From Lachnospiraceae bacterium (GTDB taxonomy: Bacteria > Bacillota > Clostridia > Lachnospirales > Lachnospiraceae): a stretch of DNA of 54,217 bases. The translations under genes and the position numbers were made by a program. The DNA lies in NCBI GenBank assembly GCA_017617545.1, contig JAFZVZ010000004.1, forward strand, positions 1 through 54,217, written 5' to 3'. Numbering within the stretch: the first letter of the stretch is position 1; each line of letters begins with the position of its first letter. Below the pieces are notes generated by a model, which saw only the letters and a program-made list of their open reading frames with translations, was not told the DNA's origin and did not search any database. Shown here one piece after another: positions 1 through 54,217 of the stretch.

Positions 1-510
1 GTCATAGTATCCCCCACTTTCTTCATAGACACAAGAATCATACACGTAATCACACCCATTACTCTTATTGTTTCTAATCCATGTTTCCGCTATGGCAATT
101 GCACTATTTTCACTAATTACATTTTCCCGATCTATACTTCCTACATTGATTTTACGCATTCCGCACAAAAGATTTGTGTTATATAAGAAAATGTACTCTG
201 TATTCTCTTCGTCTGCGTATACATCGTAGGTGCCATAAGAATCATCTCTGGAAGAAACCGACACGTTCCTGAGATTTTCCGTACGAACGTAATATACCGT
301 AATTAGGTTTGTTCCGTTATTGACAGCCCGTGTGATCGCTTTGTTTTCACTGTCATCGTAGTACGCTCCGTAAGCATCTTCATCCGGAACCGGCTCCGAA
401 CGCTTGGAGGAGTGATCCGCGATGACTGTTTTAACTATGAGCGCAGCAGCCACGATAACCACGACTGCAACAACGCCTGCTATCAATCGCATTCTGGTTT
501 CCTTACTCAT
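1..510 (-). CDS. Membrane-anchored protein of unknown function, 3' end cut by window edge
   Basis: The reading frame is open from the ATG at 508-510 to the window edge, giving 170 residues with no stop. Residues about 7-27 form one hydrophobic segment after a short basic N-terminus (MSKETRMR), so this is a signal anchor or uncleaved signal with the rest outside the cell. No lipobox is present. The exterior part is rich in Asp, Tyr and Asn and I recognise no domain. An AAGGAGAG ribosome site precedes the start. It lies 35 bp after the stop of the putative anti-sigma gene and is probably the third gene of that operon. A role in the same envelope-sensing circuit is inferred from position only. 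Confidence 0.75.
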   Translation of the reverse strand, partial: MSKETRMRLIAGVVAVVVIVAAALIVKTVIADHSSKRSEPVPDEDAYGAYYDDSENKAITRAVNNGTNLITVYYVRTENLRNVSVSSRDDSYGTYDVYADEENTEYIFLYNTNLLCGMRKINVGSIDRENVISENSAIAIAETWIRNNKSNGCDYVYDSCVYEESGGYYD

Positions 511-545
511 CTGCTCTCTCCTTGTTGATCATAAACGATAATTGA

Positions 546-1403
546 TTAGGGCATCTCAGCCCACTTGGCATATGCTTCAAAATAACCGATCACTTCCTGA
601 AGCGTCATTCCATTACTGAGTTTTTTCTTCGGTACCGCATTTTCCTTTGCGGTAAGCTCCCTGCCGGTTGCACTCTCCGCAATCTGATCGACCAATTCAT
701 TCAAATGATAGATTGCAATGAACGAAGCACATTCATCTTTGGAAACGGATAATATCCCGTTGTCGATTGTCCAGTATTCCGCCTTGCCTTTATCATCATA
801 TCCCGTCAGATATCCGATTCCACCCTGAAACAGAAGATTGATCAAAACCATATCGTGTGACACAAAATCTGCGACAGCCCCCTCGGGGACAAGAATTGCG
901 GTGAGACTGTTGATCTTACTGATTTTCTTACCATCGACATCGGTTCCCTGAAGATTCTCCGTATCCGCATGAAAGGAATAATATACCGAACAGTTAACTC
1001 TGACACAATTCACATAAGAATCCCCGGATAAATACAGTTTTACAGATTCTGAAGTCTCCTCAAGGTTCTCAAGAATTATGTACGGAGTCCATACATATCC
1101 TGCCGCAAGTATTGGCTCTGTCGGATTTGTTATTCCCGATCTCTTTTCCCCCAACATGTAACCATTGTGCTCATCGGGCTTTTCAGTTACCATGGTGATG
1201 CTTTCTGAAGCATGTTTATTATTGTACGCCTTTATGCCCCACAAGCAAACTGCAACCAATACAAGGAGACTCGCAGCTGATATTACAGATAATAGCAGCC
1301 GCCTGGTTTTCCTTTTCTTTTTGATCAGTTCTACATCAGCAAATTCCGTAACATGCCAATCATTGATATCACCGATTGCTTTCATTAATTCATCGGTATT
1401 CAT
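546..1403 (-). CDS. Putative membrane-bound partner (anti-sigma-like) of ECF sigma factor
   Basis: This 285-residue protein has about 35 cytoplasmic residues, one transmembrane helix (about 36-56) and a roughly 225-residue exterior domain. That is the topology of many anti-sigma factors. Its ATG overlaps the sigma gene stop by 4 bp (ATGA), so the two are translationally coupled. The cytoplasmic part has no HxxxCxxC zinc anti-sigma motif, so it is not a classical ZAS protein. The exterior part contains several Tyr/Ile-rich beta-like stretches and no domain I can name. Acting as the regulator of the upstream sigma factor is an inference from overlap and topology. It could instead be an effector controlled by it. 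Confidence 0.7.
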   Translation of the reverse strand: MNTDELMKAIGDINDWHVTEFADVELIKKKRKTRRLLLSVISAASLLVLVAVCLWGIKAYNNKHASESITMVTEKPDEHNGYMLGEKRSGITNPTEPILAAGYVWTPYIILENLEETSESVKLYLSGDSYVNCVRVNCSVYYSFHADTENLQGTDVDGKKISKINSLTAILVPEGAVADFVSHDMVLINLLFQGGIGYLTGYDDKGKAEYWTIDNGILSVSKDECASFIAIYHLNELVDQIAESATGRELTAKENAVPKKKLSNGMTLQEVIGYFEAYAKWAEMP

Positions 1404-1957
1404 AGCGTTACACCGTTCCCTTTCAAATAGGCTTTCAATTTCTCCCGAATACGATTCAGTCGCGTTCGCACGGCGCCCTCTCTCAGACCCGACAGTTCCG
1501 CCAGTATCTCATAGGAGTCCAAGTACCAATATCGACGAACAAACAACATACGATTCGTTTTCGAGAGCGTATCAAGGAAGGCATCTATGAGTTTGGAAAG
1601 CTCCTCTGTCATGATTTCATCAACAGAACTGCTCTCCGCGCACAGGAGGTTTTCCAATTCTTCAATGCTGACGGCATAGTTCCCTTTTCTTTTTTGTGCG
1701 TGATCATGTTTATACCTGTCAACAGATACTCTCCGAACAAGCCGGCACACGAACGCTTTCAATGAATCCGGACGGTTCGGCGGGATTGCGTTCCAAACTT
1801 TCAGATATGCATCATTGACGCACTCCTCCGCATCCCGTTCGTCTCCTAAAACGTTCATGGAAACGCTCTTACATAATCTGCCGTATTTTTCAGACAGTTC
1901 AACAATCGCACGTTCCGAGCGCTCAAAGAACAGCTCGATAATCTTACTGTCATCCAT
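1400..1957 (-). CDS. ECF-type RNA polymerase sigma factor
   Basis: This 185-residue protein has the two-domain layout of extracytoplasmic-function sigma factors. A sigma-2 region occurs around residues 10-75, with ERDAEECVNDAYLKVWNAIP as the recognisable segment. A sigma-4 helix-turn-helix lies around 125-180 and includes GLREGAVRTRLNRIREKLK. It would direct RNA polymerase to a small envelope-stress type regulon. The start is the ATG preceded by CGGAGGTAG. A promoter (2019-2048) lies just upstream. The coupled downstream membrane protein is the likely signal input. The family call is firm; the regulon is unknown. Confidence 0.92.
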   Translation of the reverse strand: MDDSKIIELFFERSERAIVELSEKYGRLCKSVSMNVLGDERDAEECVNDAYLKVWNAIPPNRPDSLKAFVCRLVRRVSVDRYKHDHAQKRKGNYAVSIEELENLLCAESSSVDEIMTEELSKLIDAFLDTLSKTNRMLFVRRYWYLDSYEILAELSGLREGAVRTRLNRIREKLKAYLKGNGVTL

Positions 1958-2018
1958 AATAACAACTACCTCCGTAATGCCTTCACTTCTTCAGTCGAAA
2001 AATAAAGTCATTTGTTAC

Positions 2019-2048
2019 ATTCTACATGTAATAAGTGGATTCCGTCAA
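2019..2048 (-). promoter_or_regulatory. Promoter of the ECF sigma operon
   Basis: On the minus strand TTGACG (2043-2048) is followed after 18 bp by TAGAAT (2019-2024). An inverted repeat TTACAT-5-ATGTAA (2015-2031) overlaps the -10 box and could be a regulator site. Whether the sigma factor recognises its own promoter cannot be told from one site. Confidence 0.5.
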
Positions 2049-2054
2049 TTGAAG

Positions 2055-2081
2055 AACGCGCAGGCGATTTGCCTGCGCGTT
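2055..2081 (-). terminator. Hairpin downstream of thrS
   Basis: An 11-bp perfect stem, AACGCGCAGGC paired with GCCTGCGCGTT around a 5-nt loop, follows the thrS stop. The U tract on the minus strand is weak (CTTCAATTG), so termination may be inefficient. The -35 of the sigma promoter lies right beyond it. Confidence 0.6.
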
Positions 2082-2107
2082 ACGGAAAATGTTGTTATAT
2101 CCGAAGA

Positions 2108-4066
2108 TTACTCTTCCACTTCAATCTTGCGGATTACCTTGTTGTCGATCTCCTCGCGTAGTGCAGCGATGAACTCCGGCAGAGCCTTCGCGCCCTCGTC
2201 CCCGAGGTAACGGCTGCGGACGGACACAAGGCCCTCTTCCGCCTCCTTTGCGCCGACGACAAGCATGTACGGGATACGCTCAAGACGTGCCTCACGGATC
2301 TTGTAGCCGATCTTCTCGGAACGGCTGTCTGCCGTAGCAAGAATGCCGGCCTTCTTCAGCTCAGCGCGCACGGAATCAGCGTAGTCGTTGTATTTTTCGG
2401 AAATCGGAAGCACACGGACCTGCTCCGGGCAGAGCCACGTCGGGAACTGACCTGCGTAGTGCTCGATCAGCCATGCGAGCGTACGCTCGTAGCAGCCCAT
2501 CGAGGTGCGGTGGATGATCCACGGCTGTGCCTTGTTGCCGTCGGCATCGATGTAGTACATACCGAACTTCTGGGCACTCTCGCAGTCGAGCTGGATCGTC
2601 ACCATCGTGTCTTCCTTGCCGTATACATTTTTCGCCTGGATATCGATCTTCGGTCCGTAAAATGCGGCTTCGCCGTCGGCTTCCGTAAACTTGATGCCGT
2701 TCTTGTTCATGACATCGCGGAGGTACTGCTGCGTCGAGTTCCAATACTCCTCATCGCCCTCGTACTTCTCCTTGTTCTCGGGATCCCACTTGGACAGACG
2801 ATACGTCACGTCACCGTCGATACCGAGCGTCTTCATGACATAGTTCGCGAGCTCAACGCATCTCGTCAGCTCTTCCTCGGCCTGGTCCGGACGGAGCACG
2901 ATGTGGCCCTCCGTGATCGTGAACTGGCGCACTCTCGTAAGGCCGTGCATCTCGCCGGAATCCTCGTTGCGGAACAGCGTACTCGTCTCGGACATGCGGT
3001 ACGGCAGGTCGCGGTAGGAACGCTGCTCATTCATGTACACATAGTACTGGAACGGGCACGTCATCGGACGAAGCGCCATGACTTCCTTGCCCTCGCCGGC
3101 ATCCTTGTTGAGGATGAACATGCCGTCCTGATAATGATCCCAGTGACCGGAGATCTTATACAGATCGGACTTCGCCATCAGAGGCGTTCTCGTGCGGACA
3201 TAGCCCCACTCGTTATCCTCAAGGTCCTCCATCCATCTCTGGAGCGTCATGATCATCTTCGTTCCCTTGGGCGTAAAGAGCGGCAGACCCTGGCCGATGA
3301 CATCCGCCGTCAGGAACAGCTTCATCTCGCGGCCGAGCTTGTTGTGGTCGCGCTTCTTGATATCCTCAAGGTGAGCGAGATACGCGTCGAGATCCGCAGA
3401 CTTCGTAAACGCCGTACCGTAGATACGCGTCAGCATCTTATTCTTCTCGCTGCCTCTCCAGTATGCTCCCGAGGACGAGATCAGCTTGAACGCCTTGATC
3501 GGTTTCGTGCTCATCAGATGAGGGCCGGCGCACAGGTCAACGAATCCTCCCTGATCGTAAAATGAGAGCTCCGCATCCTCGGGCAGATCGTTGATCAACT
3601 CCACCTTGTAGGGCTCGCCGCGCTTCTCCATGAGGTCGATCGCCTCCGCACGGGACAGCGTGAAACGCTTGAGTTCGTTGCCCTCCTTGATGATCTTCTT
3701 CATCTCCGCCTCGATGGCATCGAGAGCGGCACGGTCCAGCGGCTCCATGTCAAAGTCATAGTAGAAGCCGGTATCGATGGACGGGCCGATCGCGCACTTC
3801 GCATCGGGATACAGACGCTTCACAGCCTCCGCAAGCACGTGCGACGTGGTATGGCGGTAAGCCGCCTTGCCTGCCTCGTCGTTAAATGTCAGAATGTTCA
3901 GCGAGCAGTCGCTGTCAATGACGGTACGAAGGTCCTTGACCTTGCCGTCCACCTCGCCTGCGCAAGCCATGCGCGCAAGTCCTTCGCTCAGATCCGCAGC
4001 GATATCGATGATGCTCATCGGCTGCGCGTACTCTTTGAACGAGCCGTCCTTCAACGTGATCTTCAT
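2108..4066 (-). CDS. thrS: Threonyl-tRNA synthetase
   Basis: This 652-residue class II synthetase charges tRNA-Thr using ATP. It has the full layout. A TGS domain covers residues 1-62. The editing/SAD region includes HTTSHVLAEAVKRLYPDAKC. The catalytic core has the zinc-binding RPMTCPF motif, motif 2 around RMSETSTLFRNEDSGE, and motif 3 IHRTSMGCYERTLAW. An anticodon-binding domain ends the protein. Length matches the bacterial family. The start ATG is preceded by AAAGGAGAACCAAC. The T-box leader immediately upstream, with an ACC specifier, independently supports threonine as the substrate. Confidence 0.98.
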   Translation of the reverse strand: MKITLKDGSFKEYAQPMSIIDIAADLSEGLARMACAGEVDGKVKDLRTVIDSDCSLNILTFNDEAGKAAYRHTTSHVLAEAVKRLYPDAKCAIGPSIDTGFYYDFDMEPLDRAALDAIEAEMKKIIKEGNELKRFTLSRAEAIDLMEKRGEPYKVELINDLPEDAELSFYDQGGFVDLCAGPHLMSTKPIKAFKLISSSGAYWRGSEKNKMLTRIYGTAFTKSADLDAYLAHLEDIKKRDHNKLGREMKLFLTADVIGQGLPLFTPKGTKMIMTLQRWMEDLEDNEWGYVRTRTPLMAKSDLYKISGHWDHYQDGMFILNKDAGEGKEVMALRPMTCPFQYYVYMNEQRSYRDLPYRMSETSTLFRNEDSGEMHGLTRVRQFTITEGHIVLRPDQAEEELTRCVELANYVMKTLGIDGDVTYRLSKWDPENKEKYEGDEEYWNSTQQYLRDVMNKNGIKFTEADGEAAFYGPKIDIQAKNVYGKEDTMVTIQLDCESAQKFGMYYIDADGNKAQPWIIHRTSMGCYERTLAWLIEHYAGQFPTWLCPEQVRVLPISEKYNDYADSVRAELKKAGILATADSRSEKIGYKIREARLERIPYMLVVGAKEAEEGLVSVRSRYLGDEGAKALPEFIAALREEIDNKVIRKIEVEE

Positions 4067-46121: not shown

Positions 46122-47708
46122 TTATTCCTTCCAGCGGACCTGCAGGTCCCAGGTCTCTACAATCCCGCCCCAGCTGTCCGATCCTTCCTCCCTGACACTT
46201 ACTGCTTTTCCGAGTGAGAACAGGAATTCTCCCTTATAAACCAGACCGGTTTCGGAATATACAAACACAATCATTGCATCATCATACGCGATCACAGCCT
46301 GTGCAAGACGTTTGCCGTCGAACGCATACTTGCCGCCGTAATATTCCAGAAACGCGTTCGTATTCAGTACAATCTCATACTGACCGTTCTCATTTCTTTT
46401 GATCACGTACAGTTTTGATAATCTGTTGCGTGTCTCCATCCGCTCCTCATAGGAGTTATATTCATCTGACACATTTTTCGGAACCAGATTGATGAGGAAC
46501 ATATCTTCCGATGTGTCAACGAATGTGAACCAGCGCTCGGAAACAGTTTCTCCGAGTTCGGTTTCATATACACACTGTCCGGACGCAAGGTCAATGAACC
46601 GGACATGATCGACACCGTTCAACGCATAATAGATCATCATGTTTTTCTGATTGTTATCGATCATGAGATTCACATAATCCGCCTCCGGTGACAGCGGAAC
46701 GAACAACTTCATCTCGTCGATCAGCACCGTCGTATTGCCTGCCTTCCTGTCAACGCGATACGGCAGGCGATAGATACCGTATCCGCCGGGGATCAGCGAA
46801 GTATCTACCACGGAACCACCGTCAGTATGTGTATTAAACGTAAAATACATCGCTTCTTCCGTCACGGAACCGGTAAACCGGGGCTGGTAACAATCCTTTC
46901 CGACCGCCACCTGCTCCACATACGTATAGCCATCTTTCCTTGAACCTTCAATCCTGCGTTCATCCTCCGCGATCACGGGAATACGGAAGAACTCCTCAAA
47001 CTTTCTTGCGATCTCTTTGACTTCCGAATAGTCAAACCGATCCTCCGGAGCATAGAATTTCTCATCTTCCTCCCATTCCTCATACTTATCAAACGGCCAG
47101 ATAATATTCCCGGCCGGTTTCCGCGGTTTTCCGTTTTCATATGCCCTGTCCGTATATATGTCTTCACTCGGAGCCGGAAATTCCATCCTGTCAAGGATGG
47201 GGTAATATTTTACGTAATCCGACAATCGGACGACAATCGGTGTATCACTTTCACAGGCAGCATCGCGCATGGAAGCCGGGAGCCAGTTCGGATCATATGG
47301 ATAGCCGATATCCTGCGTCTCAATCCCGTACCCACCGTAGTAGATACCGCTGCCGTTCATTTTGGTCAGGAATTCCTCCCTGTCCTTGTACTGCTTCGCC
47401 TGTTCCAGAATGGCGTCGGTCTCCCGGAACATATCCGAAGATATCCTGCTTTTGCCACCCTGAAACGTGATCGTATTCTTCCACTGGCGGTCGCTCATCC
47501 GCACGTAATCATAACTGTCCGGATCATCCAGCTGCGGATATTCGACAAATGAGATCTCAAGACCTTCCGCCGCACTTGCATCTCCGTAGCGTACCGTAAT
47601 CTCCGCCGTGGTATTTCGCTCCCGATACAGCAGGAAGCCAACCATCGCTGACGCGCCGATCGTGCTGACCAGGAAGACGATCGTGAGTAGTAGCATTCGT
47701 TTTCTCAT
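46122..47708 (-). CDS. Membrane-anchored exterior protein of GntR/ABC operon
   Basis: This 528-residue protein has one N-terminal membrane helix (about 5-27) and about 500 exterior residues rich in Tyr, Asp and Glu. A beta-propeller-like or lipoprotein-like fold is possible, but I recognise no named domain. It has no lipobox. The ATG at 47708 is chosen for GAGGGG upstream. It is the last gene of the operon. A role next to the ABC transporter is inferred by position. Confidence 0.75.
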   Translation of the reverse strand: MRKRMLLLTIVFLVSTIGASAMVGFLLYRERNTTAEITVRYGDASAAEGLEISFVEYPQLDDPDSYDYVRMSDRQWKNTITFQGGKSRISSDMFRETDAILEQAKQYKDREEFLTKMNGSGIYYGGYGIETQDIGYPYDPNWLPASMRDAACESDTPIVVRLSDYVKYYPILDRMEFPAPSEDIYTDRAYENGKPRKPAGNIIWPFDKYEEWEEDEKFYAPEDRFDYSEVKEIARKFEEFFRIPVIAEDERRIEGSRKDGYTYVEQVAVGKDCYQPRFTGSVTEEAMYFTFNTHTDGGSVVDTSLIPGGYGIYRLPYRVDRKAGNTTVLIDEMKLFVPLSPEADYVNLMIDNNQKNMMIYYALNGVDHVRFIDLASGQCVYETELGETVSERWFTFVDTSEDMFLINLVPKNVSDEYNSYEERMETRNRLSKLYVIKRNENGQYEIVLNTNAFLEYYGGKYAFDGKRLAQAVIAYDDAMIVFVYSETGLVYKGEFLFSLGKAVSVREEGSDSWGGIVETWDLQVRWKE

Positions 47709-47719
47709 AGTATTTCCCC

Positions 47720-48427
47720 TCATCGCATCTCAAGGTTATTCTTGCGGTCATACACGGTTTCCGCCGCGAAGAATACGACAGCAGGCACCATCATGGCCAC
47801 ATATGTCAATTTGCACACGAATCTGACGATCTTTTCGAATTGCTGCGGATCGCTGTTCCACCACTGATCCATCGCCTCCCGTACCGGTCGGAACAACGAA
47901 CCCTCATCAACAAATCCGGCCGCACTGATCACATAAAACACTATGATGATCAGCGTAAGCACTGCCAATATCCGAAGCGGAACCTTCCAACGTCCTACGA
48001 AAAATGCTCTCACCGCAGCGATCGCAGAAGGTCCTGCGAACAGTATCATAGTAAGCAGTACGAGACCCAGCTGGTTGCTTTCAGAAATTGTTTCCCCGAA
48101 GAAGAACAACAGAACAGATATAGGACCGAAACTGCCAAGCGGCGATGTGTCACCCTCGACAATCCAGCCCACATTCAGCGAAGCACAGCAGAGCACTGTT
48201 ATCACGGCACACACGATATCCATTTTCCTGCGACCTGCGATCGCCAAGATGACAAATCCGATCGGGATCAGGTACACCCAAAATGCCAGAAGTGAATAGA
48301 TCTGTCCTGTTTTCCTTTCGAAATCGTCAAACGGCGTCCATGGATTCAGGATCGCGCCCAGTGCCAGGAACAGATACCCGAGCAGGCACAGGAACCGTCC
48401 GATCCAATAGTATTCCTTCCGTTTCAT
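47720..48427 (-). CDS. Multispanning membrane protein of GntR/ABC operon
   Basis: This 235-residue protein has about six membrane helices with short loops and no recognised domain. GGGGG precedes the ATG at 48427. It lies 19 bp after the ATPase gene and 11 bp before the next. It could be a permease subunit, as its position follows the ATPase, but no ABC-2 signature is certain. Confidence 0.75.
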   Translation of the reverse strand: MKRKEYYWIGRFLCLLGYLFLALGAILNPWTPFDDFERKTGQIYSLLAFWVYLIPIGFVILAIAGRRKMDIVCAVITVLCCASLNVGWIVEGDTSPLGSFGPISVLLFFFGETISESNQLGLVLLTMILFAGPSAIAAVRAFFVGRWKVPLRILAVLTLIIIVFYVISAAGFVDEGSLFRPVREAMDQWWNSDPQQFEKIVRFVCKLTYVAMMVPAVVFFAAETVYDRKNNLEMR

Positions 48428-48446
48428 AGCATCCCCCTTGCAAAGC

Positions 48447-49202
48447 TCACTCTTCACTCTTGCGTTTCGTCTTCTCGCCGGTGATGATTTCCAGCGAACG
48501 GCTGACACGGTCGGATTCGTATCCGTACAGCTTCTTCACATACTCCACCAGCGTGTCCCCATTTTCCTCGATATCAGCCACCTGAACATCACCGATGATC
48601 TTTCCCTTGTGGATCATCACGGCGCGGTCGATAAAGCCCTCCACCTCCTCGATCAGGTGCGTGGACAGGATGATCGTCTCCGTCGGCTCCAGAATTCCCA
48701 GGAGCACCTTATAGAAATCCTCGCGGTTGAAGATGTCATGCCCCACAAAGGGCTCATCGAGGAAAATGTAATCCGCTCCCTGCGACAGCGCGAGGATCAC
48801 CTCGATCTGGCTCTTCTGACCCATGGAAAGGTTCTTGATCGGACGGTAGGCCGGAAACTCGAAGAACTCAATCAGTCCGCGGAACCGTTCCTTTCGAAAC
48901 TTTGGAAAATGATCCGCGTAAAAGTCCGCGTGTTCCATCGCCGTCAGCTCCGGGAAGAAGCTGAACTCACAGGTTCCGAACGAAAGCCTCGCGATATTGC
49001 TGCGGTCGATCGGTTCCCCGTCCAAAAGGATCTCGCCGGTGTAACCGAGAAATCCGAGAATACATTTCATGAGCGTCGTCTTGCCGGCGCCGTTCTCTCC
49101 GAACAGCCCGATGATCTCACCCTGGCCGATGGACAGGTTGATGTCGGAAAGAGCCTCCACCGTCTTTCCGTAACGCTTCCCTACATTTTTCAACTCTACC
49201 AT
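48447..49202 (-). CDS. ABC transporter ATP-binding protein
   Basis: This 251-residue ATPase has Walker A GENGAGKTT (35-43), signature LSMGQKSQ near 129, Walker B YIFLDEP near 149 and an H-loop STHLIEE. The CcmA/YtrB-like type is suggested by size and GntR linkage. GGAGG precedes the ATG at 49202, which overlaps the previous gene by 7 bp. It would energise the adjacent membrane proteins. Substrate unknown; cell-envelope antibiotic sensing is known for related operons. Confidence 0.92.
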   Translation of the reverse strand: MVELKNVGKRYGKTVEALSDINLSIGQGEIIGLFGENGAGKTTLMKCILGFLGYTGEILLDGEPIDRSNIARLSFGTCEFSFFPELTAMEHADFYADHFPKFRKERFRGLIEFFEFPAYRPIKNLSMGQKSQIEVILALSQGADYIFLDEPFVGHDIFNREDFYKVLLGILEPTETIILSTHLIEEVEGFIDRAVMIHKGKIIGDVQVADIEENGDTLVEYVKKLYGYESDRVSRSLEIITGEKTKRKSEE

Positions 49203-49825
49203 GCGAATATCCTCCAAAATCTGAATGTGGTATACATCGGCAACCTTCCCGGAAGTGAACAGTGCCAGTATATGAAATAGCATACGAGACATACTGTCAC
49301 GCAGATGATCACGTGCAGAAGTAATTCCGCGAGCGGTAGCAGTAAGCACCGTTTATGCATCTCCCATCGGTTCGGCAGCCGCCTCATCACGTAGTACCCA
49401 TTCGAGGGCTTTCTGTAGCTGCGGTAATTCAGTATGATCATAAAGATCGTCGCCACAAAGACCGCCGGCAGAAGCGGGAACGTCCCGTACATCAGTTTAT
49501 CAAACTTGGGGAGCGGCTCATACACCACTCTCACTCTGGTCTCCGTCTTCGGAACATCCGGAACGACATAGGTACAATCCTCAAACGAAAGGGTCGATCC
49601 CATGGAGGCCCAGCTATAATAATTTCCGTCTTTGAAATCAAGCATAACATGATCATCATTATGCTCTTTATCTTCAAGAAAGCGATACGCGAAACATCCG
49701 CAGCTGTACACAACGACCAGCAACAGCAGCAGAAGCGAGTCGATTGCATACCACTTGCGCTTCTTCGCGTTGGCACTCCCCTGCCAGCGCGCGGGGTACA
49801 ATTTATCAGATGTCAGCCACTTCAT
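49196..49825 (-). CDS. Membrane protein with YVMRRL box, permease-like paralogue 1
   Basis: This 209-residue protein has an N-terminal helix (about 28-48), an exterior region, a second helix around 114-132 and a third at about 160-185. The segment YVMRRLPNRWEMHKRCLLLP is nearly shared with the 220-residue protein at 50539-51201 (YVMKRLRSKAEMHRRCLLFP). The start overlaps the previous gene by 20 bp. It looks like an ABC-2-like subunit of this operon. Confidence 0.75.
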   Translation of the reverse strand: MKWLTSDKLYPARWQGSANAKKRKWYAIDSLLLLLLVVVYSCGCFAYRFLEDKEHNDDHVMLDFKDGNYYSWASMGSTLSFEDCTYVVPDVPKTETRVRVVYEPLPKFDKLMYGTFPLLPAVFVATIFMIILNYRSYRKPSNGYYVMRRLPNRWEMHKRCLLLPLAELLLHVIICVTVCLVCYFIYWHCSLPGRLPMYTTFRFWRIFAW

Positions 49826-50522
49826 TATCGGTTCTTTCCTTTCCGTCGTGCAGCTGTTGCACGGTCAGAACAACCGTGATCACCAATCCCAATCCGACAA
49901 AGAATACACTTTCCAGTTCCCATCCGCTGACAAACATGATCGAGGTAAACACCATGGTTGCGATACCCGTCCCGAAGGATGCGCTCTTTCCGGTGTGCAT
50001 TGACACGCAGGCACACGACACGCCTCCGCAGATCACGCACACGATACCGTGCAGCCATCCCGTGACCGACAACATCGGCACAATGCTCTTGTAGAACTTA
50101 TTTCCGTACATGGCGAACACGATGTCCTGCGGGCCGGCCTCGTGCCACTCGAAGGAACTCTGGATCAGTCCCGCAAGTCCGAGCGTGATGATCTCTGCCT
50201 GCCACAGAAGCAGGAAGAACAGTGAACACGCGACGATCTCCCAAAGGAACACGTTCCGCTCGGATATCTGCAATCGCGTCAGCAGATACCGTCTCGTGCT
50301 GCGCGCGGACAGGATACCCGTGCAGGCAAGCGCCGTGAAAAATGATGCCACTGAGAAGATACCCAAAAACAGAACGTAGCTTTTCCCGAGGCGAAATGAA
50401 TTCGTTCTCACCAGCACCGTGTACACGCCCAGGCTGAGTACCATCATGCACGTGATCGAGACAAGCACCCATTTCATCTTCACCCGCAGCATCAGCGCGA
50501 GTACCGATAGATTCTTATGCAT
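49806..50522 (-). CDS. Multispanning permease-like membrane protein
   Basis: This 238-residue protein has about six membrane helices and a short soluble start. Loop STRRYLLTRLQISERNVFLWE between helices 2 and 3 resembles the ABC-2 permease cytoplasmic loop. GGGGG precedes the ATG at 50522. It sits between the two YVM(K/R)RL paralogues and likely is the core permease. Confidence 0.75.
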   Translation of the reverse strand: MHKNLSVLALMLRVKMKWVLVSITCMMVLSLGVYTVLVRTNSFRLGKSYVLFLGIFSVASFFTALACTGILSARSTRRYLLTRLQISERNVFLWEIVACSLFFLLLWQAEIITLGLAGLIQSSFEWHEAGPQDIVFAMYGNKFYKSIVPMLSVTGWLHGIVCVICGGVSCACVSMHTGKSASFGTGIATMVFTSIMFVSGWELESVFFVGLGLVITVVLTVQQLHDGKERTDNEVADI

Positions 50523-50538
50523 TCTTCGTTTCCCCCTT

Positions 50539-51201
50539 TTACAAAAACGTTCCGAAAACAGAAACCGTATCGACACCGGTTTTAAAAATTTCCGCATTGT
50601 TGTAAATGTGAATGAAGCAGCGTATCATGACCCACACATAGGCGGTTCCGATCAGCGCGCATGCCATCGGGAACAGCAGGCACCGCCGATGCATCTCTGC
50701 CTTGCTTCGCAGCCGTTTCATCACATAGACGCTTTTGCTTCCCCGGTAGAAACCAACGTAATGCAGGATTACCAGGAATACGCACCACAGGATCAGAAGC
50801 GGATACGCGGTAAAGCAATCCTCGAGGAAGTAATCCAGGTTTTTAAACGCTCCCTCACTCCACCGTACTTCAACAAGTCCTCCGTCCGACTCTTCTTTCA
50901 GCCTGTCATACGAAGCCTGCATTTCCCGTGATGTTTTTTTCCAATCGTCCATGCGCTGATAAAACCGCATACTCCCCAGAACCAGAAAGCAAAGAAGTAC
51001 AGCGCTTACGAAAATCTCAATCAGGATATGTGCTCCGGGCGGAAATCCTGCAGCGATCCATTTAAAAAATCGGTTCTGTCCGGCCTCTTCAAACTGTCCG
51101 GTCTCTTCGTTCCGTCCGGCCTCATCTGTCCGCCCGGTCATTTCGACCTCCGAGGTTTCCTCCGCGATCCTCTCGTCCGTCAACTCATTTTCCGTATTCA
51201 T
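50539..51201 (-). CDS. Membrane protein with YVMKRL box, permease-like paralogue 2
   Basis: This 220-residue protein has an acidic cytoplasmic N-terminus (about 45 residues rich in Glu), helices near 60-80, 138-158 and 182-205. It carries YVMKRLRSKAEMHRRCLLFP, the box shared with the 209-residue protein downstream. The start is the ATG at 51201 with GGGGG upstream, 13 bp after the GntR stop. It appears to be a diverged duplicate. Confidence 0.75.
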   Translation of the reverse strand: MNTENELTDERIAEETSEVEMTGRTDEAGRNEETGQFEEAGQNRFFKWIAAGFPPGAHILIEIFVSAVLLCFLVLGSMRFYQRMDDWKKTSREMQASYDRLKEESDGGLVEVRWSEGAFKNLDYFLEDCFTAYPLLILWCVFLVILHYVGFYRGSKSVYVMKRLRSKAEMHRRCLLFPMACALIGTAYVWVMIRCFIHIYNNAEIFKTGVDTVSVFGTFL

Positions 51202-51214
51202 GGTCAATCCCCCG

Positions 51215-51592
51215 TCACTCTTCATCCCAGAAGCGTTCAATCAGGCGAACCGCCTCTTCGCGTGTAATTCCCATCTGCCTAAGCGATTCCGTAATGCTTC
51301 GGATATCCTCCCTCAGAAGATCCTCCCGAAGCTTCACGATCTTCTCATCATTCAGTTTCATCGTACTCTTCGCCCCCGTTTGCGACTCGATTAAGTCTTC
51401 GTCCTCCAGCATTCGAAACGCCTTCTGCACCGTGTTCGGATTGATCCCCAGAAGCGCCGAAAGAACACGCCTCGACGGCAGTTCGTCGCCGTCCAGGATC
51501 GTTCCCGCGACGGCACCGCGCTTGATGAACAACAATATCTGCAGATAGATCGGTGTTCCGTCTCCCGGTTTAAATGTGTCAAATGAAATCAT
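51215..51592 (-). CDS. GntR-family repressor, YtrA type
   Basis: This 125-residue protein is a winged-helix GntR with a short C-terminal dimerisation helix, typical of the YtrA subgroup. Recognition features include GTPIYLQILLFIKRGAVAG, LPSRRVLSALLGINPNTVQK and FRMLEDEDLIE. Such proteins repress adjacent ABC operons. The ATG at 51592 has AAGGAAACGG upstream. It leads the operon and its promoter holds two adjacent 26-bp inverted repeats, strong candidates for its own operators. Confidence 0.92.
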   Translation of the reverse strand: MISFDTFKPGDGTPIYLQILLFIKRGAVAGTILDGDELPSRRVLSALLGINPNTVQKAFRMLEDEDLIESQTGAKSTMKLNDEKIVKLREDLLREDIRSITESLRQMGITREEAVRLIERFWDEE

Positions 51593-51681
51593 GTTCGTTT
51601 CCGTTTCCTTCTGTTTGGCCGGATCCTTGCCAAACCCTAACCAGTCTTTGTACGTGCACGTTACTCCGTTCCCCACATCCA

Positions 51682-51707
51682 AACCGTATTAGTCATGTAA
51701 TACGGTT
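51682..51707. promoter_or_regulatory. Operator O1 (perfect inverted repeat) in GntR operon leader
   Basis: AACCGTATTA and TAATACGGTT (10-bp arms, perfect) flank GTCATG. It lies about +1 to +25 of the GntR transcript. The half-site AACCGTATTA recurs in the array at 51912-52007. Confidence 0.85.
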
Positions 51708-51733
51708 GGCTGTATTATACGACTAGTACAGTT
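51708..51733. promoter_or_regulatory. Operator O2 overlapping GntR operon promoter
   Basis: Directly next to O1, the minus strand reads AACTGTACTA, GTCGTA and TAATACAGCC. This has the same arm length and 6-nt centre as O1, with two arm differences. It covers the -10 box and most of the spacer, so binding would block RNA polymerase. Confidence 0.75.
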
Positions 51734-51742
51734 GCTTGTCAA
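51714..51742 (-). promoter_or_regulatory. Promoter of GntR/ABC operon
   Basis: A near-perfect promoter: TTGACA (51737-51742), 17-bp spacer, TATAAT (51714-51719) on the minus strand. A CGGAAAATG-type word (GGAAAATG) lies just upstream of the -35. Confidence 0.9.
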
Positions 51743-51846
51743 TACATTTTCCGAATCTTTTTTCAAACCTTTTAAAGCGCTTCGGAAAATGGCTGTGCTC
51801 TACTCCGGAAAGTCCTTATTTTATGCGGCTTTCGCGCCCAACAAAC

Positions 51847-51877
51847 AAGCCGGCAATCCATCTCGGACTGCCGGCTT
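51847..51877 (-). terminator. Terminator of the aminotransferase-like gene
   Basis: AAGCCGGCA pairs with TGCCGGCTT (9 bp) and the minus strand continues TTGTTTGTTG. It lies beyond the tandem array, so the array falls in the 3' untranslated region. Confidence 0.7.
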
Positions 51878-51911
51878 GAAACCGTTAGTATGCATATGTA
51901 CTGTATTTCTA

Positions 51912-52007
51912 AACTGTATTACTTGCGAACTGTATTACAAGTAAACCGTATTACTTGCAAACCGTATTACTTGCAAACCGTATTGCTTGCGAACCGTATT
52001 CCTTGCG
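51912..52007. repeat. Six 16-bp direct repeats carrying the GntR half-site
   Basis: Six consecutive 16-bp units, from 51912 (AACTGTATTACTTGCG) through 51928, 51944, 51960, 51976 to 51992. Units 3 and 4 are identical (AACCGTATTACTTGCA). A degraded seventh copy (GACCGGATCACTGCAG) runs into the aminotransferase stop codon. The first ten bases equal the arm of operator O1 (AACCGTATTA) and the spacing is 16, the same as arm-to-arm in O1. This half-site array lies 180 bp from the promoter. Confidence 0.92.
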
Positions 52008-52014
52008 GACCGGA

Positions 52015-53202
52015 TCACTGCAGCGTCGCGGGCTTGCTGAGTACATCAGCGATGATCTCCACCGCCTCGTCGACCAACGCCTCGGTGTGCGAAGCCATGT
52101 AGCTTGTGCGCAGCAGGCACTCGGTGGGTGCCGTTGCGGGCGGAAGCACTGTGTTGACATAGACGCCTGCGTCATAGAGCTGCTTGGCGCGGATCAGCGT
52201 AGTATCAGCGTCATAGGTGTAGATCGGAATGATCGGCGTATCGCTCATGCGGATGCGAATGCCGCGGTCCAGAAGTCCCTTGCGGGCACGGGACGAGATC
52301 GCCTGCAGTTTGAGAGGAAGCGAAGGATCTCTCTCAAGGATGCGAAGCGCCGTCAGCGCAACCGCGCAGCTTGCCGGAGTGATGGACGCCGAGAAGATGA
52401 ACGGACGGGAGTTGTGTCTCACGTAGTTCGCCACTCTCTCGCTGGCCGCCATGTAACCACCCAGGGATGCAAGCGATTTGGAAAATGTCCCCATGTAGAT
52501 ATCGACATCATTCTCAAGGCCGAAGTAGCTCGCGGTTCCGCGGCCGCCCTCGCCGATGACGCCTAAACCGTGCGCATCGTCCACCATGACGCGCGCGTTA
52601 TACTTCTTAGCCAATGCTACGATCTCGGGAAGCTTGGCGATATCACCGCCCATGCTGAACACACCGTCGGTGACGATCAGGCAGCCCGCCGTGTCCGGCA
52701 CCTTCTTGAGCTGCTCCTCAAGGTCCTCCATGTCCGCGTGGCGATACCGAAGCATCGTTCCGTAGCTCAGCTTGCATCCGTCATAGATGCTCGCGTGATT
52801 CTCGCGGTCACAGATGACATAGTCATGTCTGCCGACAAGGCAGCTGATGATGCCGAGGTTCGACTGGAAGCCCGTGGAAAATGTGACCACGCTCTCCTTG
52901 CGGAGGAATTTGGCGAGCTCATCCTCAAGCTCCAGATGAAGACGAAGCGTTCCGTTCAGGAAGCGGGATCCCGAACAGCCCGATCCGTATTGTTCAAATG
53001 CCTTGATCCCGGCCTCCACAACCTCCGGATGCGTTGTCAATCCGAGATAGTTGTTCGAACCGAGCATGATGCGCCGCTTGCCCTCCATGATGACTTCCAC
53101 ATCCTGGCGGCTCTCAAGCGCGTGAAAATACGGGTAAACCCCCATTGCCTTTGCTTCTTCTACCCTTGTGAACTTAAAACACTTTTCAAACAGATCATTC
53201 AT
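52015..53202 (-). CDS. Alpha-oxoamine synthase (serine palmitoyltransferase/KBL-like)
   Basis: This 395-residue PLP enzyme condenses an amino acid with an acyl-CoA. His136 (ENHAS), Asp209 and His211 (DDAHG) and the PLP lysine Lys242 (TFSKSLASLGGY) are all present. The opening GVYPYFHALESRQDVEVIMEGKRRIMLGSNNYLG is closer in reading to bacterial serine palmitoyltransferase than to biotin KAPA synthase, but KBL (glycine acetyltransferase) is not excluded. The ATG at 53202 is used; a GTG at 53217 next to GAGGGG is possible. A promoter lies upstream. Confidence 0.85.
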   Translation of the reverse strand: MNDLFEKCFKFTRVEEAKAMGVYPYFHALESRQDVEVIMEGKRRIMLGSNNYLGLTTHPEVVEAGIKAFEQYGSGCSGSRFLNGTLRLHLELEDELAKFLRKESVVTFSTGFQSNLGIISCLVGRHDYVICDRENHASIYDGCKLSYGTMLRYRHADMEDLEEQLKKVPDTAGCLIVTDGVFSMGGDIAKLPEIVALAKKYNARVMVDDAHGLGVIGEGGRGTASYFGLENDVDIYMGTFSKSLASLGGYMAASERVANYVRHNSRPFIFSASITPASCAVALTALRILERDPSLPLKLQAISSRARKGLLDRGIRIRMSDTPIIPIYTYDADTTLIRAKQLYDAGVYVNTVLPPATAPTECLLRTSYMASHTEALVDEAVEIIADVLSKPATLQ

Positions 53203-53274
53203 AGCAGTCTGTAACACCTTCCCCTCAGATATTCGTTAGTCGATACGAAATCATTTCCCGTAACACACTAATCC

Positions 53275-53303
53275 ATTTTACCGCGAACAACGCTAATTGG
53301 CAA
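53275..53303 (-). promoter_or_regulatory. Promoter of the alpha-oxoamine synthase gene
   Basis: TTGCCA (53298-53303), 17-bp spacer, TAAAAT (53275-53280). A 12-bp perfect palindrome AGTAAATTTACT (53324-53335) lies 20 bp upstream of the -35 and may be a regulator site. Confidence 0.6.
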
Positions 53304-53375
53304 GCGAAACCAAAGGATTTAAAAGTAAATTTACTGTAAACAGAGCTGTGATACGCTCACATTGCAGGCATGGAA

Positions 53376-53399
53376 AAAGGACCGGTTTCCCGATCCTTT
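53376..53399 (-). terminator. Terminator of the hydrogenase gene
   Basis: AAAGGATCGG pairs with CCGGTCCTTT around GAAA on the minus strand, with one mismatch, then TTCC. It ends the hydrogenase transcript before the next promoter. Confidence 0.75.
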
Positions 53400-53457
53400 C
53401 TCCGATCATACTTTCGTATGCTTATTGACTTGTAATCACGCAGGATTGCGTCGCCGA

Positions 53458-54217
53458 TCAGCCGTTGATGCTTCTCTTAACGTAGTGCGTGTGGAGGATC
53501 TCATGAGCCTTGTGGCTGCCGAACTCACCGAAGAACTCCTCGTAAACCTTCTTGATGGAAGGATTCTCATGAGACTTGCGGATCGTCTTAGCAGCGTCGT
53601 TGTCATAGAGAGCCTTGGCGCGGAGACCGCGTACATCTACGAAGTTGCGAACCTCGGAGTCAACGAGAGGCTGGCCACCGCCGTTGATGCAGCCGCCCGG
53701 GCAAGCCATGATCTCGATGAAGGTGTAAGGCGAGGTGCCGGCCTTGATCTGATCCATGATGATGCGAGCGTTAGCAAGCGAGGATGCAACAGCAACCTTA
53801 ACCTCAAGGCCGCCGACATTGTACGTAGCTTCCTTGATACCCTGCATACCGCGGACTTCCTTGAAGTCAACAGCGGTGAGCTCCTCACCGGTGATAACCT
53901 CAACTGCGGTACGGAGAGCTGCCTCCATAACACCGCCGGTAGCGCCGAAGATAACAGCTGCACCGGTGGACTCGCCGAGCGGATCATCGAACTCGCCGTC
54001 CGGAAGGGCTGCGAAATCGATGTCGTTGCGCTTGATCATGCGGGCAAGCTCACGGGTCGTGATGGAGATGTCAACATCCGGAAGACCCGGAACTGCGCTC
54101 TGGTCTCTCGTAACCTCGAACTTCTTCGCGGTACAAGGCATAACGCCGACGCAGACGATCTTCGCGGGATCGATGCCCATCTTCTGTGCGTAGTAGGTCT
54201 TAACCGTAGCACCGAAC
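53458..54217 (-). CDS. [FeFe] hydrogenase catalytic subunit, C-terminal part (cut by window edge)
   Basis: The frame is open to the right edge; 252 residues are visible. VGVMPCTAKKFE is the L2 H-cluster motif and MACPGGCINGGGQP is the L3 motif, both with their cysteines. The L1 motif (TSCCP) lies beyond the edge. The C-terminus HKAHEILHTHYVKR matches the group A catalytic subunits. It reduces protons or oxidises H2, disposing of electrons in fermentation. The start is outside the window. Confidence 0.95.
   Translation of the reverse strand, partial: FGATVKTYYAQKMGIDPAKIVCVGVMPCTAKKFEVTRDQSAVPGLPDVDISITTRELARMIKRNDIDFAALPDGEFDDPLGESTGAAVIFGATGGVMEAALRTAVEVITGEELTAVDFKEVRGMQGIKEATYNVGGLEVKVAVASSLANARIIMDQIKAGTSPYTFIEIMACPGGCINGGGQPLVDSEVRNFVDVRGLRAKALYDNDAAKTIRKSHENPSIKKVYEEFFGEFGSHKAHEILHTHYVKRSING

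Follow-up and report, generated by a model that had tools for sequence, protein, structure and literature searches.

A 16-bp tandem repeat resembling the arm of a neighbouring GntR operator: probably a young, lineage-restricted minisatellite

Operators of GntR-family regulators are frequently accompanied by additional recognition elements. Two papers (PMC4494728; PMC6746942) describe extra, weaker half-sites beside the operator as common among GntR regulators, those of the YtrA type included, and give direct-repeat sites for other members of the family, of the FarR, NagQ, NanR and MocR types. Direct repeats of half-sites add to binding in the case of Sulfolobus YtrASa, according to PMC6746942. 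PMC4494728 places the known extra boxes 7–12 nt from the site centre, and states that YtrA-type regulated genes have mostly single sites.

Here we describe a locus of a Lachnospiraceae bacterium in which the arm of a candidate GntR operator recurs, always in the same orientation, within a tandem repeat behind the neighbouring gene. The window (the whole stretch of DNA that was analysed, 54,217 nt) was compared with congeneric genomes and with a sample of genomes from the family.

The locus and the operators of its repressor

On the minus strand, a kbl-like gene and its stop codon are followed by the array, a terminator-like hairpin, a promoter-like site with O2, then O1, gntR and more genes, one of them for an ABC transporter ATPase. 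The features are listed in that order, with the possible further unit placed beside the stop codon that it overlaps:

52015-53217, minus strand: kbl-like gene (BioF/Kbl-type PLP-dependent enzyme; Pfam PF00155), with the array in its 3′ untranslated part
52015-52017: stop codon of the kbl-like gene
52007-52022, minus strand: possible degenerate further unit of the array, picked out by eye, overlapping the last codon and stop of the kbl-like gene
51911-52006, minus strand: array of six 16-bp direct repeats (Tandem Repeats Finder), GCAAGTAATACGGTTT on the transcribed (minus) strand
51846-51878, minus strand: terminator-like hairpin downstream of the kbl-like gene
51714-51742, minus strand: promoter-like site before gntR, TTGACA-17-TATAAT, sigma-70-type, 12 of 12 consensus bases
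51708-51733, minus strand: candidate operator O2, abutting O1 and overlapping the −10 hexamer and the promoter spacer; score 28.8, second highest in the window
51682-51707, minus strand: candidate operator O1, AACCGTATTA-GTCATG-TAATACGGTT, inverted 10-bp arms about a 6-bp centre; score 35.7, highest in the window
51215-51592, minus strand: YtrA-like GntR regulator of 125 aa (Pfam PF00392, E 4.2e-9, residues 27-73)
48447-49349, minus strand: ABC transporter ATPase of the presumed operon (PF00005, E 4e-22), start codon uncertain

The regulator has the short C-terminal part after the winged-helix domain that typifies YtrA proteins, as well as the neighbourhood expected of them, with an ABC_tran gene downstream on the same strand in an operon presumed from gene order. 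Solved GntR-type relatives of 113-134 aa, 4r1h and 4ham, match its residues 7-120 and 11-120, and the NCBIfam PmtR model gives E 2.3e-10, yet 40.5 bits against a cut-off of 200. The kbl-like protein matches the Kbl, BioF, serine palmitoyltransferase and glycine C-acetyltransferase models strongly, in every case under the model's own cut-off. An 18-bp direct repeat of 2.7 copies (51076-51123; Tandem Repeats Finder score 61) lies inside the minus-strand reading frame 50539-51240 that comes after gntR.

O2 overlaps the promoter-like site and O1 follows it. In the window genome an exact operator search returned O1 only, and allowing three mismatches added O2 and one distant place. By protein search, 16 of 22 congeneric genomes (counting that of the window) encode a GntR orthologue, at 70-100% identity. 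When these genomes were searched for the inverted operator with up to three mismatches, a pair of sites with starts 26 or 27 bp apart was present in all 16 genomes with the orthologue and in none of the six without it; outside the neighbouring pairs there was one distant match each in four genomes: the window genome G000, G005, G006 and G020. This co-occurrence makes it very probable, as far as comparative sequence analysis can tell, that O1 and O2 are true operators of this GntR protein, and so supports the pairing proposed in an earlier note on this DNA; the O1 architecture described there, of inverted 10-base arms around a 6-base centre, is likewise borne out. Across the 64 arms of the 32 congener operators, positions 5, 6, 7 and 10 are invariant, and position 4 is C or T.

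The array and its likeness to the operator arm

Tandem Repeats Finder assigns the array a period of 16, 6.0 copies, 85% matches and a score of 129, with the consensus AAACCGTATTACTTGC, which makes it the top-scoring tandem repeat of the window (the runner-up scores 61). The six head-to-tail copies that had been recognised by inspection are confirmed: units start at 51912, 51928, 51944, 51960, 51976 and 51992, and all read AAC(C/T)GTATT(A/G/C). The exact arm, AACYGTATTA, is present in four of the six, while the units at 51976 and 51992 are one base off, ending in G and C. These two deviate at arm position 10, the same in all 64 operator arms; arm position 4 is T in some array units and C in others, as it is in the operators. 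The earlier note had set the array in the next gene's 3′ untranslated region, ending at its stop codon; it does lie there, between stop codon and hairpin, but ends eight bases short of the stop codon. The distance to the operators, previously given as 180 bp, needs only a small correction, O2 and the array being separated by 177 bp. No further copies of the array were found elsewhere in the genome. An assembly artefact was judged unlikely because one congener, G016, has a distinct array of its own in the corresponding position.

The likeness of the array unit to the operator arm, which the earlier note had pointed out, is beyond chance. The unit has 12 consecutive bases in common with the promoter-operator region (51660-51760, both strands) and agrees with one arm plus its flanks at 15 of 17 positions, ungapped. 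A run of 12 or more arose in 48 of 200,000 shuffles of the unit (about 1 in 4,000); the 15/17 match arose in none of 3,000 shuffles, and 2 of 3,000 real 16-mers drawn from the window attain it. In the 2.73-Mb genome AACYGTATTA occurs 10 times, six of them in O1 (two arms) and the array (four); its reversed control string occurs 10 times too. The four exact array arms score 17.85-18.92, against 17.85 for O1's own, and rank among the best half-sites of the window.

Two further features of this region are observations in their own right. The first is a 10-mer, CATTTTCCGA, of which two inverted copies lie near the array at 51745-51791. It is present at nine more places in the window (6274, 11081, 12097, 16310, 21681, 31644, 34066, 34101 and 39125), its flanks without evident conservation, and with 11 copies is the commonest 10-mer of the window. 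The genome holds 454 occurrences (251 and 203 on the two strands) against 1 for the reversed string, and three congeners examined, G021, G018 and G012, hold 432, 174 and 74 against 2, 1 and 4 for the control. There were none in 62,603 bases from seven loci with 80-86% kbl identity, and two in 595,934 bases from 66 more distant loci. Inverted pairs of its 9-base core number twelve genome-wide (control, 0). A second genome match to the array, on contig C4, is the inverted repeat of CATTTTCCGA and not a further array. GAAAATG is itself enriched in the window (37 vs 4). The 10-mer looks like a genome signal of the uptake, Chi or regulator type.

The second is the double operator (51682-51733), kept in all 16 GntR-bearing congeners, in contrast to the mostly single sites reported for YtrA types in PMC4494728. 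These two observations, the double operator with its conservation and the 10-mer with its genome-wide spread, are sturdier than the array.

Distribution, divergence and origin of the array

Twenty-two congeneric genomes, eight of them just 79-86% complete, were searched throughout for runs of same-orientation arms, three mismatches being tolerated. The array came up in two closely related bacteria, the window genome (six units) and G016 (five units). The other congeners had at most two scattered arm matches per genome, the same as the reversed control; none of the remaining 14 operator-bearing congeners yielded an array, and no arm repeats were seen in the upstream regions of the other gntR orthologues. 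For G001 and G008, in which the 500 bases before gntR are without operators, and for G020, in which the gene is cut off by a contig end, absence was read from the genome-wide search alone. G021 has the same kbl–gntR junction, a terminator-like hairpin and both operators, but lacks the array. Family-wide, 397 sampled genomes (the window genome and one congener included) were scanned for pairs of same-orientation arms, at most two mismatches being allowed, and 31 had a match: five in the window genome and one in each of 30 others, a frequency that the reversed control equalled or exceeded for the single-match genomes. Judged from these searches, the array stands outside the conserved GntR-operator system.

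The copy number differs between the two carriers, six units against five, and their alignment shows one 16-bp gap. Between them the array has 6 substitutions in 80 positions, and the spacer that separates it from the −35 hexamer has 9 in 164; the promoter plus operators have 2 in 61, the 5′ UTR 1 in 89 and the coding end of kbl 6 in 33. Although the counts are small, the array diverges like the neighbouring spacer, and faster than the promoter-operators or the 5′ UTR. The earlier note had suggested looking for orthologous arrays in which copy number varies and the half-site is kept: the variation is there, but the arm is exact in four of six units of the window genome and in two of five units of G016, so that the expectation holds weakly.

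Our data are consistent with a model in which the array is a drifting minisatellite, young and restricted to one lineage, that carries an operator arm between the kbl stop codon and the terminator; we consider this the probable reading. Units of at least 10 bases stand head to tail and differ between carriers by a whole unit, and the presence in two of 22 congeners, the array-free junction of G021, the six versus five units, the spacer-like divergence, the want of a good inverted site and the low number of exact arms in G016 all support it, as does the family-wide scan. The 16-bp unit, which contains the presumed recognition arm of the GntR repressor whose gene comes next downstream, would have multiplied by slippage or unequal exchange. 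The array itself would be close to neutral, at most a weak half-site platform on whose single arms GntR dimers may make weak contacts.

Several observations sit less easily with neutrality. An arm match of about 1 in 4,000 is left to coincidence or to descent from O1, and the T/C alternation at arm position 4 mirrors the operators. Within the array, arm positions changed less between carriers than spacer positions did (2/50 vs 6/30; Fisher p=0.047), and over all 11 units departures from the consensus are fewer in the arm (6/110 vs 11/66; p=0.019) if the C/T of the operators is allowed; if it is disallowed, the arm count rises to 10/110 (p=0.15). Of the 16 possible phases of a 10-column block, the one that holds the arm shares second place in conservation on either measure. 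Because the cells of these tables share descent, and hence are not independent in Fisher tests, the lower change at arm positions is a hint of selection on the arms, not a demonstration.

For the origin of the first unit, derivation from the operator has a rival in slippage at the kbl stop codon, since array-free kbl 3′ ends are like the unit as well, if a little less convincingly than the operator: the kbl 3′ end would already have had GCAAG and TTGCAGTAATAC about 16 bp apart, tandem copying would have given rise to the unit, and most of its similarity to the operator would be chance. This origin, which is compatible with a drifting minisatellite, seems to us quite possible without being probable. 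The array adjoins the kbl stop codon, where such a duplication would start, and the last codons of the array-free G021 gene hold GCAAG and GCAG exactly 16 bp apart. Alignment scores of the unit with the G021 kbl 3′ end were reached by only 3 and 1, or 6 and 0, of 4,000 shuffles (two scoring schemes), and high scores came likewise from the kbl ends of G002 (49 and 21 of 4,000 shuffles) and G006 (7 and 16). Yet six of the nine array-free congener kbl ends are without likeness (291 to 3,860 of 4,000 shuffles reach their scores), and the best of the nine ends is equalled by 21 and 9 of 4,000 shuffles, against 4 and 4 for the operator region under the two schemes. The kbl match moreover requires two single-base gaps, whereas the 15/17 operator match has none. 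Seven bases, GTAATAC, are common to both candidate sources. On these sequence comparisons, a copy of O1 has a slight edge over the kbl end as the source of the first unit. The earlier idea of a degenerating duplication of the operator is possible, though the kbl 3′ ends resemble the unit too.

The position between stop codon and terminator would also suit an element acting in the kbl 3′ untranslated RNA, on its stability, processing or protein binding. The 181-nt 3′ region, terminator included, folds with a z of −5.5, and both carriers have a predicted six-pair hairpin inside a single unit. Taken without the terminator, the array has a z of just −1.5 in the window genome and −0.9 in G016 relative to base-shuffled sequences, and the longest hairpin of the window genome (ten pairs) is absent in G016. 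Rfam returned nothing above threshold over 51200-53400; the sole match with E up to 1 lay outside the array, at 23 bits against 48. The array alone not being unusually stable, and Rfam giving no match above threshold, we rejected the RNA-level explanation as very improbable.

Possible use by the repressor and comparison with known systems

With arms 6 bp apart, as in the operators, the top inverted site of the array scores −7.2, where O1 scores 35.7 and O2 28.8. Over spacings of 0-12, the best inverted pair scores 14.3, at spacing 11, with a good left arm at 51912 and a poor right arm. At spacings of 1, 4, 8 and 11 bp the best inverted-pair score of the window falls in the array, a further point against strict neutrality, but never exceeds 14.3. 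A composite inverted operator was rejected on that maximum. As the array offers no good inverted site, a normal GntR dimer could set only a single DNA-binding domain of its pair on an arm. B-DNA has a helical repeat of 10.5 bp per turn, and 16 bp is about 1.5 turns; neighbouring arms would therefore face opposite sides of the helix. The nearest array arm starts at 51912 and O2 ends at 51733, outside the 7-12 nt from the operator centre within which additional half-sites are recognised. Given that other GntR regulators have direct-repeat sites and weaker adjoining half-sites, half-site use of the array is not absurd.

A functional version of this idea is that GntR binds the array arms as half-sites, the array serving as a decoy or recruitment platform that leaves less free repressor or supports a loop to O2/O1, with repeat number tuning the ABC-transporter operon. 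We think it rather unlikely. It would explain why the arm match exceeds chance, why four array arms score at least as well as O1's own and why arm positions show a weak excess of conservation, and it has parallels in the extra half-sites of GntR and YtrA regulators and the direct repeats that aid YtrASa binding (PMC4494728; PMC6746942). Against it, the known extra boxes (PMC4494728) lie 7-12 nt from the site centre, not some 180 bp away, and adjacent arms would lie on opposite helix faces. Titration, cooperative spreading and looping, all raised in the earlier note, moreover go unsupported in view of the 14 operator-bearing congeners found without the array, the absence of a good inverted pair in it and a rate of change about that of the spacer. 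It is distinctly unlikely that we are seeing an early-stage, evolving natural decoy, in which a chromosomal repressor gained a nearby direct half-site array with weak cooperative binding and unit gain or loss (six vs five) tunes its own transporter operon.

If GntR does bind the array, the locus would offer a particularly simple example from nature of a tandem repeat altering the effective number of repressor sites beside a controlled gene, and two species with different copy numbers offer a comparison. If it does not, the locus is a warning that a match to an operator arm can occur in a short repeat at a level of about 1 in 4,000 with no sign of strong selection.

Bacterial minisatellites, or VNTRs, are characterised by a short head-to-tail unit, whole-unit differences in copy number, a non-coding position and decay at the edges. 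The array shares each of these features, and differs in carrying the exact arm of the neighbouring repressor's operator. In plasmid iterons, repeats at the origin bind the initiator, and the site of a single protein may be inverted at its own promoter and directly repeated nearby. The array is similar in that one motif forms both inverted arms at a promoter and direct repeats close by. It is unlike iterons in that the candidate binder is a GntR repressor and the neighbours are kbl-like and hydrogenase genes; no replication initiator appeared among the Pfam matches of nine proteins in 46122-54216, five of which match no family.

Among open-licence papers, whose silence is weak evidence, the YtrASa paper alone turned up for direct-repeat half-site arrays of GntR regulators, and none for tandem half-sites varying in copy number. 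The closest described systems are the YtrA operators with extra half-sites (PMC4494728; PMC6746942), of which the locus has the small GntR regulator beside ABC-transporter genes and the long inverted operator at the promoter. The extra half-site copies are also shared, and in YtrASa these are direct repeats of an adjacent half-site (PMC6746942). The known boxes flank the operator within a few bases, whereas the six arms here (five in G016) form a head-to-tail series some 180 bp upstream, within the 3′ part of a different gene, and were found in just two species.
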